64,000 nt of DNA from Falsiruegeria litorea R37. GTDB lineage: Bacteria > Pseudomonadota > Alphaproteobacteria > Rhodobacterales > Rhodobacteraceae. How positions within the stretch are numbered: position 1 is the stretch's first letter; the number at the start of each line of letters is the position of its first letter. The notes beneath the pieces are model-generated. The model had not been told where the DNA came from. It searched no databases and saw only the letters and a list, made by a program, of their open reading frames with translations. The stretch lies in the NCBI RefSeq assembly GCF_900172225.1, contig NZ_FWFO01000004.1:124001-188000 (forward strand), in the 5' to 3' direction. Of the stretch, positions 12,706 to 62,843 are shown piece by piece. The translations under genes were made by a program, and so were the position numbers.

Positions 12706-12899
12706 GGGGCCCCTCCCGCCCGTCGTTGATGTTTCTGACGAAACACCTCCTCCCGTTGGGCCGGGCCTCGCTGCGCTCGGCGGTTGGGGGGCACAACAGG
12801 TGCCCCAAGTGGGCACGCGCCGCGCTCCGCGCGGCGCTCGGCCCAAAGCCGCTAGCGGTGCTGGCGAAGCCAGGAACGCTCGGGTGCGGGAGGGGCCCC
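12706..12899 (+). repeat. dispersed structured intergenic repeat, copy A
   Basis: This 194-base element starts 15 bases after the DUF1194 stop. Perfect fourteen-base outer arms (12706-12719 and 12886-12899) enclose several perfect hairpins. They are TGTTTC/GAAACA around TGAC (12730-12745), GGGGCAC/GTGCCCC (12788-12806), GCGCCGCGC/GCGCGGCGC (12817-12837) and CTGGC/GCCAG (12861-12873). TTGGGCC (12756-12762) pairs with GGCCCAA (12840-12846). The blocks CTCCCGCCCGTCGT and ACCTCCTCCCGTTGGGCC recur in the other copies. No ORF here has coding character. Bases 12900-12969 show nothing further. Confidence 0.85.
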
Positions 12900-18460: not shown

Positions 18461-18545
18461 CTCCCGCCTGTCGTCGATTTTTCTAGGCAGAAAAACCTCC
18501 TCCCGTTGGGCCCGGCGCCGCGCGGGCGCGCGGCGCGCCACCGCC
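18461..18545 (+). repeat. dispersed structured intergenic repeat, copy B
   Basis: CTCCCGCCTGTCGTCGAT is followed by a seven-base-pair hairpin TTTTTCT/AGAAAAA around AGGC (18478-18495). Then come CCTCCTCCCGTTGGGCCCGG and a G+C-rich imperfect hairpin (18514-18540). It matches copy A block by block, though the hairpin arms differ. It lies 152 bases after the ZIP-like gene in the same direction. Bases 18309-18460 show nothing recognisable. Confidence 0.8.
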
Positions 18546-19737: not shown

Positions 19738-19978
19738 GCTCCCGCGCCCGCGCTGATTTCGGCTGCGCCGAAATCTCTGGCGGCCTTGGGCCGGGCGCCG
19801 CGCTTCGCGCGGCGCGGTTGCGTTCTGTGGCAGATGTACCGCTGCAACAAATCCAGGAAAAGACCTGGATACTGCATTGCAGGAAAGTTGCACCTGGACG
19901 CCAAGCGCCGTGCGAAGCGCGGCGCCGGGCCCAACAGGAGGAGGTTACTCTGCCAAGAAAATCGACGACGGGCGGGAG
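19738..19978. repeat. dispersed structured intergenic repeat, copies C1 (+) and C2 (-) in convergent arrangement
   Basis: C1 (19738-19821) reads CTCCCGC, then a perfect nine-base-pair hairpin GATTTCGGC/GCCGAAATC (19755-19775), then TTGGGCCGGGCGCCGCGC and its pairing arm. C2 (19905-19978) is the same element on the minus strand: CTCCCGCCCGTCGTCGAT, a weaker small hairpin around TTGGCA, CCTCCTCCTGTTGGGCCC and a G+C-rich hairpin. Each points away from its nearest gene: C1 follows the DUF1989 stop by 38 bases, C2 follows deoD. The 83 bases between them show no coding character. Confidence 0.8.
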
Positions 19979-44732: not shown

Positions 44733-47530
44733 GCGTTGGCCCGCTTTGCGCCTTCGGTGATTGCCTCGCGCAGCTTCTTTTCCAATGTGCGTTGTTTGCT
44801 TTCGGCGTGGTACTTCAGCCCAAACATGTCCTTGACATAGAACGTGTCGACCACCTGCTCGCCGTAGGTCGCAATGACCGCGTTGGCAATGTACACGTTG
44901 GTTCCGGCAAGCGCACGCGCCAGATCATAGAGCAGGCCGGGCCGGTCGCGGGTATCAACCTCGATGATCGTGTAGATCTCGGACCCTTCGTTGTCGAAGG
45001 TGATGTGTGTCGGAACGTTGAACGCCTTTTCGCGCTTTTTGATCTTGTCCCGGGACTTCAATGCGTCCCGTGCCACCACTTCGCCCTTGAGGGTCTTGTG
45101 GATCATCTGCGTCAGACGCGGCAGGCGATCGGTTTCATAAGGGCGCCCCTCGGCGTCCTGGATCCAGAACGCATCGGTGACATAGCCGTCTTTGGTCGTA
45201 TAGCTGCGGGCATCCACAACGTTCGCCCCGACCAACGCCAAAGCCCCGGCAACCCGCGAGAAAATGCCCGGGTGATCCCACATCGCGAAACAAGCGCGGG
45301 TCGCGTCGCGATCTTCATCAGGGTGAAGCCGGATTTCGATGTCGCCGGGATCACCCGAAGCTTCAAGCGCGCGCAGCATGTCAGCAAACTCGACCTGTGT
45401 TTCTGTCTGCAGCCCTTGCCAATAGGGGTCATAATGGCGCGCCGTTTCCGCCTTGAGCTCTGCTTTGCTCCAATCCGCCAGAGCAGCGCGCAGAGCTTTC
45501 TTGGCCTCGGTTCCACGGTTCTCGCGGTTGAGGTCTTCCATCCCTGTCTCAAGCGCACGCTTGGTCTCGCTGTGCAGGGCGCGCAGCAGGGTGGCTTTCC
45601 AATTGTTCCAGGTATCAGGGCCGACGCCCCGAATGTCACACACGGTCAGAACCGTCAGCAGGTCGAGGCGTTTGACCGTCTGCACCGCCTTGGCAAAGTC
45701 CCTGACTGTGCGTGGGTCCGAGATGTCGCGTTTCTGCGCCATGTCCGACATCAGCAGGTGATACCGCACCAGCCATTCGACTGTCTCGCAGTCGGATTTG
45801 TTCAGCCCCAGACGCGGTGCGACCTTGCGGGTGATCCTGGCCCCCAGGATCGAGTGGTCCTCGGAGCGGCCCTTGCCAATGTCGTGCAGCAGCAGTGCCA
45901 CATAAAGCACCTTGCGATTCACCCCCTCTTTGAGGATGCTCGAAGCCAGCGGCAGCTCTTCGACCAGCTCGCTTTTCTCGATCATCGCCAGGTTGGTGAT
46001 GCACTGTATCGTATGCTCGTCCACCGTGTAGCTGTGATACATATTGAACTGCATCATCGCGACGATGGGCTCGAACTCGGGTATGAACGCCGACAGAACG
46101 CCAAGCTCGTTCATCCGACGCAGGGCGCGTTCCGGATTGCCGTGCTTGAGCATCAGATCGAGGAATATCCGCTGTGCTTCCTTGTCGCCGCGCATCTCGT
46201 CATCGATCAGCGCCAGGTTCGCCGTCACCAGACGCATGGCGTCAGGATGGATCAGCATGCCGGTGCGGAGCCCCTCGTCAAACAGCCGCAGCAAGTTCAG
46301 CTTGTCTGACAGAAACTTTTTCGGGTCAGCCACATCCAGCCGCCCATGCACAACCTTGTAGCCTGCCTTGACCTTGGGGCGACGACGGAAAATGCGCTCC
46401 AGCAATGGCTCGCTTTTCATATGTGCGGCTTCCAGTTTGGTCAGCAGAATGCGCGTGAGTTCTCCAACCCGGGTCGCCTCGCGGAAATACTTCTGCATAA
46501 AGACCTCGACCGCGCGACGTCCGGCGCGATCTTCGTATCCCATGCGCGCGGCCACCTCGACCTGCAGGTCAAAAGTCAGCTGTTCGGTGGCGCGGTTGGT
46601 CACCAGATGCAGGTGTGAGCGCACGGCCCACAGAAAGCTTTCGGCCTGAACAAATGTGTCAAACTCGTCCGGGGTGAACAGGCCCAGGGGCACCAGTTCT
46701 TCCACGTCTTGCACGCTGTAGAGGTATTTGGCGATCCAATAGAGCGATTGCAGATCGCGCAGGCCACCCTTGCCCTCTTTCACATTGGGCTCGACCATGT
46801 ACCGCTCGCCCTGCTTGCGGTGGCGCAAGTCCCTTTCGGCCAGCTTTGCCTCGATGAACTCCTGGCCGGAACCTTTGAACAGCTCAGTCTTCAGGCGCTC
46901 GTCCAATTCTTTGGCCAAGGGGGCGTGACCGGCGAGGAACCGTTGTTCCAGCATCGCGGTGCGGATGGTGAAATCCTCGGCCCCAAGGCGCAGGCAGTCC
47001 TTGATGGTGCGGGAGGAGTGGCCGACTTTCAGGCGTAGATCCCACAGCATGTAGAGCATGGATTCAATCACGCTCTCGGCCCACGCGGTGATCTTGTAGG
47101 GCGTCAGGAACAGCAGATCGACGTCCGAAAATGGTGCCATCTCTCCGCGTCCATACCCCCCAACGGCCATCACGGCGATGCGTTCGCCTTGGGTCGGGTT
47201 GGCGAGCGGGTGCAGAATTTCGCTTGCAACATATAGCGTCGCACGCACCAAACCATCGGTCAGATAGGTATAGGACCGGGTCAGGGGGCGGGCGGCGAAG
47301 GGCGCTGTGGCAAAAGCCTCGGCTATTTTGGCGCGACCTGCCTTTTGCACGTCGCGCAGCACACCAACCACCTGATTGCGGATGGCAGCGTTGTCGGATG
47401 TATCGTCTACGATGGCATCAATGCGCTGACGGATGGTGTCAGCGTCAAAGATGTCATTTGGTTCGCAGATCAAAGTGCCCGCAGACTGGGGCACCAACGG
47501 GTTTGATGGGGTTAGTTCAGAAACCGGCAC
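44729..47530 (-). CDS. glnD: [protein-PII] uridylyltransferase / uridylyl-removing enzyme
   Basis: The 933-residue protein probably starts at a GTG that overlaps the upstream gene by 14 bases. The nucleotidyltransferase motif VGGYGRGEMAPFSDVDLLFL is near residue 130, the HD domain HDIGKGRSEDH near residue 555, and two ACT domains near the C-terminus (AMWDHPGIFSRVAGALALVG and DTRDRPGLLYDLARALAG). GlnD senses glutamine and controls PII uridylylation, hence nitrogen assimilation. Confidence 0.97.
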   Translation of the reverse strand: MPVSELTPSNPLVPQSAGTLICEPNDIFDADTIRQRIDAIVDDTSDNAAIRNQVVGVLRDVQKAGRAKIAEAFATAPFAARPLTRSYTYLTDGLVRATLYVASEILHPLANPTQGERIAVMAVGGYGRGEMAPFSDVDLLFLTPYKITAWAESVIESMLYMLWDLRLKVGHSSRTIKDCLRLGAEDFTIRTAMLEQRFLAGHAPLAKELDERLKTELFKGSGQEFIEAKLAERDLRHRKQGERYMVEPNVKEGKGGLRDLQSLYWIAKYLYSVQDVEELVPLGLFTPDEFDTFVQAESFLWAVRSHLHLVTNRATEQLTFDLQVEVAARMGYEDRAGRRAVEVFMQKYFREATRVGELTRILLTKLEAAHMKSEPLLERIFRRRPKVKAGYKVVHGRLDVADPKKFLSDKLNLLRLFDEGLRTGMLIHPDAMRLVTANLALIDDEMRGDKEAQRIFLDLMLKHGNPERALRRMNELGVLSAFIPEFEPIVAMMQFNMYHSYTVDEHTIQCITNLAMIEKSELVEELPLASSILKEGVNRKVLYVALLLHDIGKGRSEDHSILGARITRKVAPRLGLNKSDCETVEWLVRYHLLMSDMAQKRDISDPRTVRDFAKAVQTVKRLDLLTVLTVCDIRGVGPDTWNNWKATLLRALHSETKRALETGMEDLNRENRGTEAKKALRAALADWSKAELKAETARHYDPYWQGLQTETQVEFADMLRALEASGDPGDIEIRLHPDEDRDATRACFAMWDHPGIFSRVAGALALVGANVVDARSYTTKDGYVTDAFWIQDAEGRPYETDRLPRLTQMIHKTLKGEVVARDALKSRDKIKKREKAFNVPTHITFDNEGSEIYTIIEVDTRDRPGLLYDLARALAGTNVYIANAVIATYGEQVVDTFYVKDMFGLKYHAESKQRTLEKKLREAITEGAKRANA

Positions 47531-59245: not shown

Positions 59246-59334
59246 ACAACCGCCGCGCGCCGCTAGGCGCGCGGCCCGGCCCAACCCCGCCAGCGGGCAT
59301 CTGTGATGCATGCGCGGGGGCGGGAGTACCCCCG
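59246..59334 (-). repeat. dispersed structured intergenic repeat, copy E
   Basis: Read on the minus strand, it starts at the trans-sulfuration stop codon: GGGGGTACTCCCGCCC, a small hairpin GCATC/GATGC around ACA (59297-59309), GGGGTTGGGCCGGGC, and a perfect nine-base-pair hairpin CCGCGCGCC/GGCGCGCGG (59253-59274). It fills the gap between two convergent genes. Confidence 0.75.
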
Positions 59335-62707: not shown

Positions 62708-62709
62708 CT

Positions 62710-62843
62710 GCGCGGCCTATCGGCCTTGCGTCCTGCGGACGGCAGGGGGCCAGGCTCACGCGGGCAAAGCCCGCGTGAGCCTGGCCCAACGGGAGGAGAT
62801 GTTTCGCCAGAAACATGGACGACGGGCGGGAGTACCCCCGAAG
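62710..62843 (-). repeat. dispersed structured intergenic repeat, copy D
   Basis: Read on the minus strand: GGGGGTACTCCCGCCC, then hairpin ATGTTTC/GAAACAT around TGGC (62799-62816), then ATCTCCTCCCGTTGGGCC. A perfect nineteen-base-pair stem with an AAA (plus-strand) loop follows (62747-62765 with 62769-62787), then hairpin CCTGC/GCAGG (62732-62746). It sits between convergent genes and starts about 15 bases after the hydroxyacid-dehydrogenase stop. Confidence 0.85.

Follow-up and report, generated by a model that had tools for sequence, protein, structure and literature searches.

A REP/BIME-like family of paired double-hairpin units between genes of Rhodobacteraceae, with a possible RNA role at transcript ends

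In the decades since REP-type repeats became known, no consensus on their function has emerged, and it has usually been unclear whether they work as RNA or as DNA. The CcsR or 'cuckoo' RNAs are CCUCCUCCC sRNAs of Rhodobacter and its relatives. As far as Di Nocera et al. (2013, PMC3733652) describe them, CGTC- and GTAG-tagged REPs are high-copy palindromic intergenic repeats, often arranged as inverted dimers whose spacers mostly measure 20-100 bp, and lie mainly between convergent or unidirectional genes, with those in convergent spacers of two species mostly less than 20 bp from the gene ends. In that account, CGTC REPs occur mainly in Alphaproteobacteria, come without a dedicated transposase and have a unit of 20-40 bp whose single stem, 8-9 bp long, begins with AT and encloses a loop of 4-5 nt, mostly followed by a CCA tail (PMC3733652). 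CGTC families were reported there in all alphaproteobacterial orders (PMC3733652), so some may be known in Rhodobacterales, and the main text of PMC3733652 does not name Rhodobacter, Ruegeria, Roseobacter, Dinoroseobacter, Paracoccus, Phaeobacter, Jannaschia or Rhodobacterales. REPINs and BIMEs, in turn, are extragenic doublets of inverted units that flank a variable spacer and carry compensatory changes, as far as PMC3116915 describes them.

The family described here shares with the published CGTC REPs, to the extent of that description, the arrangement in intergenic inverted pairs near gene ends and, for the Y1 type searched in four genomes of the genus, the lack of a dedicated transposase. 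It differs from them in its unit of about 75 nt, its two hairpins, its tandem-G·A stem and its conserved CCCAA and GGCGGGAG; the arms follow no AT rule, and the aligned copies have no CCA tail of the kind described in PMC3733652. Read outside-in, the units that we call L mostly show CCCGTCG beside hairpin 2, within the block-tail stem, and the R units displayed are without CCCGTCG. Like the REPINs and BIMEs outlined in PMC3116915, the present composites lie outside genes, join two inverted units across a variable spacer and show compensatory changes; the family differs in having no Y1/RAYT gene in four genomes, a strand-specific structure and low turnover at ten sites. Searches across 5.39 million open papers found, among the matches listed, no description of this Rhodobacteraceae repeat, and sequence words of the repeat led, in the papers listed for them, to human, animal or viral topics. 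Being dispersed, extragenic and stem-loop-forming, the family is a REP in the wide sense; the kind of repeat, REP-type inverted pairs near gene ends, is known, and the unit size, double hairpin, G·A stem and conserved flanks set it apart.

The window, by which we mean the whole 64-kb stretch of DNA that was analysed, contains the element in six stretches (Table 1). The original prediction had located all six stretches and the hairpins quoted for them correctly, and the arms of these small hairpins differ between copies yet pair, as it had stated. Its delimitation of the copies needed revision. Copy A is itself a composite of two units, and C1 and C2, counted as separate copies, are the two outward ends of one composite. 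Copies C1 and E, thought to have a reduced middle block, turned out to be R-type units with another block, and the block of E, CCCCG, can pair with CGGGG. The hairpin of copy D lies where it had been placed, within a stretch that is just the 3' part of a longer variant. This D-type variant is an L unit that has a very long hairpin 1, of 19 bp in copy D, and carries a further module on its 5' side; in copy D its start directly abuts the TAA of an M3-peptidase gene. A motif search found 25 D-type copies, 22 of them with the 5' start, and in the added 5' module GGCC/GGCC changes to GACC/GGTC. The sequence CTCCTCCCG occurs four times in the window against 0.73 expected, a number reached by 0 of 100 shuffles; one occurrence, at 47010-47018 (-), lies outside every unit found.

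Table 1 Copies of the repeat in the 64-kb window and the parts of copy A
Feature	Window position	Strand	Contig position	Description
Copy A, composite	12706..12899	.		Two outward units, 33-bp middle and outer arms; genes on both sides read +
L unit of copy A	12713..12783	-	C4:136713-136783	96.3 bits; structured strand -
Hairpin 2 of copy A L unit	12730..12745	-		TGTTTC / GAAACA with 4-base loop
Block CGGGAGGAGG of copy A L unit	12746..12755	-		CCTCCTCCCG on +; opposite CGACGACGG beyond hairpin 2, their pairing (G-C and tandem G·A) resting on family-level evidence
R unit of copy A	12817..12892	+	C4:136817-136892	95.4 bits; structured strand +
Copy B, lone L unit	18461..18536	-	C4:142461-142536	Tandem spacer
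Copy C1, R end of composite	19739..19815	-	C4:143739-143815	Convergent genes
Copy C2, L end of C1's composite	19905..19978	+	C4:143905-143978	
Copy E, lone R unit	59252..59326	+	C4:183252-183326	Convergent genes
Copy D, D-type variant	62708..62840	+	C4:186771-186832 (core)	About 133 bp

Comparison of the copies showed that the element is built from directional units of about 75 nt, each with two hairpins, and that a "full" copy, of which A is an example, joins two units in a back-to-back arrangement. From inside to outside, a unit runs through hairpin 1, CGGCCCAA, the block, hairpin 2, the tail, GCGGGAG and YRCYYCC-like bases; its conserved landmarks are the CCCAA after hairpin 1 and the long hairpin 2 closed by the tandem-G·A stem, with GGCGGGAG thereafter. 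The covariance models, 71 and 76 positions long, contain two or three stems. The two unit types, L and R, are distinguished by the block, which is CGGGAGGAGG in L units, the complement of the CCTCCTCCCG named in the original prediction, and differs among R units, for example GGCCGCTAGCGG or CCCCG. The GGGAGGAGG block of L units pairs with CGACGACGG across hairpin 2 through G-C and tandem G·A pairs, block and tail facing each other beyond hairpin 2 in the order C-G, N:N, G-C, G·A, A·G, G-C, G·A, A·G. Among 123 L units, columns 56/93 hold G-C in 113 and A-T in 5, columns 54/94 hold G·G in 100, C-G in 11, G-C in 5 and A-T in 2, and the first tandem step is G·A in 113 (57/92) and A·G in 122 (58/91); the second step is less strict (92 and 75). 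In RNA and DNA alike, such tandem pairs are expected to stack well. A local hairpin GGGCG-GGAG-YRCYY is possible at the 3' end, where C/T variation opposite G suggests pairing and an A at +2 (19-30%) breaks it.

The two hairpins were then evaluated over 123 distinct L units of the source genome. Pairing was found in 91.9% of stem cells versus 74.6% in shuffles, 253 cells were changed on both sides versus 69, and covariation was 0.421 versus 0.138, values that none of 500 shuffles reached in pairing, double changes or covariation. When the pairing was slid as a control, the paired fraction dropped to 37-61%. An alignment of 70 rows, combining 24 loci from ten other genera with units of the genus, gave 93.3% pairing versus 71.2% and a covariation of 0.508 versus 0.132 in shuffles; the copies are related, so the shuffle controls overstate significance, which the alignment with other genera lessens. 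These data show that the structure is kept by compensatory change while the letters vary, in agreement with the proposed selection on single-strand structure. The covariance model, genome search and covariation test that had been put forward as checks on the original prediction were all run, and the family passed them.

To assign the structured strand, the best stem of each unit was sought in a strand-neutral way, which parsed 201 of 204 units (3 unparsed), and non-Watson-Crick pairs in distinct stems were then tallied as read inside-out. Hairpin 2 had more G·T than A·C, 54 to 5 (p = 2e-11), G·G outnumbered C·C by 41 to 3, and A·G stood at 15 against 6 C·T (p = 0.08). Hairpin 1 had 32 A·G against 8 C·T, and its G·T and A·C pairs were balanced (17 and 16). 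RNA folding was more stable on the GGGAGGAGG strand in 118/122 L units and on the same inside-out strand in 74/77 R units, found with covariance models that were built inside-out and may favour copies fitting that strand; copy D alone folds well both ways (z = -6.4, complement z = -5.7). From the G·T/A·C bias and the folding preference it follows that the strand with GGGAGGAGG carries the structure, and CCTCCTCCC is its complement. Accordingly, one end of a composite has its structure on one strand and the other end on the opposite strand. The original prediction had chosen the other strand and seen on it an unpaired anti-Shine-Dalgarno CCTCCTCCC; the first is wrong and the second unsupported, as G·T excess and RNA folding put the structure on the opposite strand, where GGGAGGAGG is paired with CGACGACGG.

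The strand assignment bears directly on a reading of the family as a set of anti-Shine-Dalgarno sRNAs with unpaired CCUCCUCCC, Rhodobacter-like, which we regard as highly improbable and rejected on the strand evidence. Although CCTCCTCCCG is present on the outside-in strand, and this is the strand that the flanking genes would transcribe in 19/28 lone tandem units of the source genome, the conserved structure lies on the other strand with the block paired there, the R units (77/204 kept matches) have other blocks in the copies displayed, and no unit matched an Rfam family above threshold in the window or in four loci. The L-unit block resembles CcsR/cuckoo in that its complementary strand contains CCTCCTCCC; the differences are that here the opposite strand is structured, the block is paired, there are more than 100 copies and a second unit type lacks the block. 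In place of a CCUCCUCCC unpaired in the RNA, the structured strand has its paired complement. The likeness to CCUCCUCCC sRNAs thus amounts to no more than a single block, in one of the two unit types, read on its complement; the original prediction had inferred no homology to them, and nothing in our analysis suggests any. In the 64-kb window, Rfam gave 0 matches above the gathering threshold. At E<=1 in the four loci, the only matches at units were sub-threshold ones to MIR898 and BASRCI408 (L034:8574-8722 and L097:5532-5704), most likely chance likenesses to long G+C-rich palindromes. A SAM_alpha riboswitch (RF00521), ordinary in such bacteria, was found at L101:10690-10767 (+) with 57.3 bits against a cut-off of 36.

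Across the 4.69-Mb source genome, the L and R models gave at least 130 and at least 102 matches at E<=0.1, and the unit numbers are lower bounds, obtained from the best 150 of 3222 and the best 150 of 4969 candidates scored. Where the models overlapped, 3 of 130 R1 rows were dropped at kept R2 matches and 25 of 102 R2 rows at kept R1 matches. This left at least 204 unit matches (127 L, 77 R), 13 of which have E between 0.001 and 0.094, in at least 144 groups. Of the groups found, 60 are composites and 84/144 are single units (66 L and 18 R). All composites except one, which faces inward as R+ L-, are outward-facing inverted pairs (59/60), and 58 of these consist of one L and one R unit. BLAST with copy A gave 45 matches in the source genome, itself included, confirming a dispersed element; Mega-BLAST of the copy A locus against plasmids gave no match. 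The perfect 14-base outer arms of copy A are real and did not carry over to other composites: in 59 one-L-one-R composites, the outer bases of the L and R ends matched no better than shuffled pairs at +1 to +6, and at +7 the observed value was reached by 72/2000 shuffles. Closure of composites by outer arms was therefore rejected.

Placement was determined relative to genes called by a custom codon-usage script, not an annotation pipeline. None of the 144 unit groups overlaps a called gene. The 142 classified groups lie in 96 convergent, 44 tandem and 2 divergent spacers, distributed as 44 convergent and 16 tandem for composites and as 52, 28 and 2 for lone units, of which two without a flank were left out. 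In the window plus about 100 kb in each of four species, 32/74 convergent, 12/247 tandem and 0/76 divergent spacers hold a unit, an occupancy biased upward because the four-species region was picked around a locus with four unit groups. Pattern matches in the 80 loci listed were convergent in 24/43 classified cases from other genera (15 tandem, 4 divergent; 5 at edges) and in 23 cases from the genus (10 tandem, 1 divergent; 2 at edges), and units in the set of 24 loci were 12 convergent, 9 tandem, 1 divergent and 2 unclassified. These counts show that the units avoid genes and prefer convergent gene ends. Lone units in tandem spacers of the source genome were antisense to the genes in 19 cases and sense in 9, an excess that a sense-3'UTR model would not lead one to expect; in other genera the orientation was even (7 to 8), and the bias was dropped as a signal.

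The strong preference for convergent spacers, where positive supercoils accumulate, and the long palindromic form of the elements would suit a double-stranded DNA or chromosome-level site between convergent genes, serving gyrase, a nucleoid protein or cruciform formation. Roles of this type have been proposed for E. coli BIMEs. We nevertheless consider such a site rather improbable here, because it has no preferred strand, yet the wobble and G·A pairs are strand-biased, and because the hairpin arms change with pairing kept, unlike a sequence-specific site.

Units are present in 4/4 genomes of the genus examined, the source genome included. In a comparison over about 100 kb, relatives provided an anchor for 10/11 sites of the source genome. 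A unit was present in the orthologous spacer at 10/10 sites in relative G120, 4/4 in G121 and 8/10 in G073, one of the two exceptions there being a truncated unit. At another site, the source genome lacks a composite that three relatives carry. No clean empty site was seen among the orthologous sites aligned, and in about half of the ten ortholog alignments the spacer outside the unit failed to align (by eye). The comparison shows that units are retained at most comparable orthologous sites. At C2:208676, C2:218595 and C2:240885, the kind of hairpin 2 (e.g. GCATC/GATGC or GTTTC/GAAAC) differs between species at the orthologous place and looks as if swapped between copies. When C2:240885 is compared with its orthologous spacer in G073, a lone L unit in one species corresponds to a lone R unit in the other, a hint that some lone units are what is left of composites. 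Farther afield, matches at E<=1e-5 were found in 10 further genera of a 120-genome family sample (12 genomes in all) and in 18/149 genomes of the order, own included, all of them in Rhodobacteraceae, in a sample whose number of other families is not given. An exact-pattern scan of named genomes returned at least 119 stretches; the 80 matches listed are presumably Rhodobacteraceae, judged by genus name, two of them carrying just an order or class name. The spread of copies looks old.

These distributions weigh on the main rival explanation, a selfish REPIN/MITE-like mobile element whose ends would be recognised as folded single-stranded DNA by an enzyme acting in trans, gene ends being merely where inserts survive. 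Dispersed copies with unrelated flanks speak for it, as do about 10 composites with similar middle sequence (by eye), about 22 D-type copies much alike over about 133 bp between different flanks, and the inverted doublets, variable spacer and compensatory changes that PMC3116915 describes for REPINs. Against it stand the occupation of the same orthologous places at most of the ten sites, with no clean empty site among those aligned, and the search for the Y1 (RAYT) transposase PF01797, which was negative in 4/4 genus genomes, own included, and positive in 5/14 control genomes. A RAYT/IS200 transposase as mover was accordingly rejected for the genus genomes searched; another enzyme is possible. 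The single-strand mechanism of the IS200 type requires both ends to be folded on one strand, unlike the composite ends, structured on opposite strands. We judge the mobile-element explanation possible and on balance doubtful. The absence of the transposase and the low turnover speak against present activity, not against a mobile origin.

The units are mostly unlike intrinsic terminators of the hairpin and U-tract kind. At least five T in seven, within +3..+27 past the unit, were found for 27/204 units (9/84 lone, 18/120 in composites), and T enrichment downstream of the unit is weak. Terminators with hairpin and U-tract were present at 26/182 convergent gene ends with a unit and 8/30 without (p = 0.11), and the idea that units replace canonical terminators was set aside as not significant. 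In the C2:238135 spacer of the source genome, a terminator-like hairpin with a T run adjoins the unit and is kept in two relatives (by eye).

We infer, with a confidence just short of even, that this is a new REP/BIME-like family of Rhodobacteraceae that acts as RNA at transcript ends. The RNA role is favoured because the structure is strand-specific, lies at gene ends and is mostly retained; a function as single-stranded DNA would be expected to give the same G·T bias. Further points weigh against it: G·T and A·C are even in hairpin 1, the complement of copy D also folds well, U-tracts are few, normal terminators are not significantly scarcer at gene ends with a unit, orientation in tandem spacers is not consistently sense, and convergent spacers may just be where a neutral insert does least harm. 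In a convergent spacer, a unit would follow one gene in the sense orientation, its 3' end lying some tens of bases away from the stop codon of the opposing gene. A transcript entering the spacer would fold into the double hairpin, which would set or protect its 3' end as a barrier to 3'-to-5' exonucleases and perhaps brake the polymerase before antisense entry into the opposing gene. Two outward units would serve both convergent transcripts. A bolder version appears rather unlikely: the family would be a directional end-piece of RNAs throughout the lineage, present at roughly two fifths of the convergent pairs counted, whose double hairpin on a tandem-G·A stem ends or seals transcripts before antisense run-in and, mostly lacking a U-tract, differs from intrinsic terminators.

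What sets this family up for further study is that it reveals its structured strand and stays put at most of the sites compared, with the expected transposase not found. With the strand known and the retention established in the absence of that transposase, an action as RNA at gene ends and a nature as selfish DNA become separately testable, and they may be tested in culturable marine Rhodobacteraceae.
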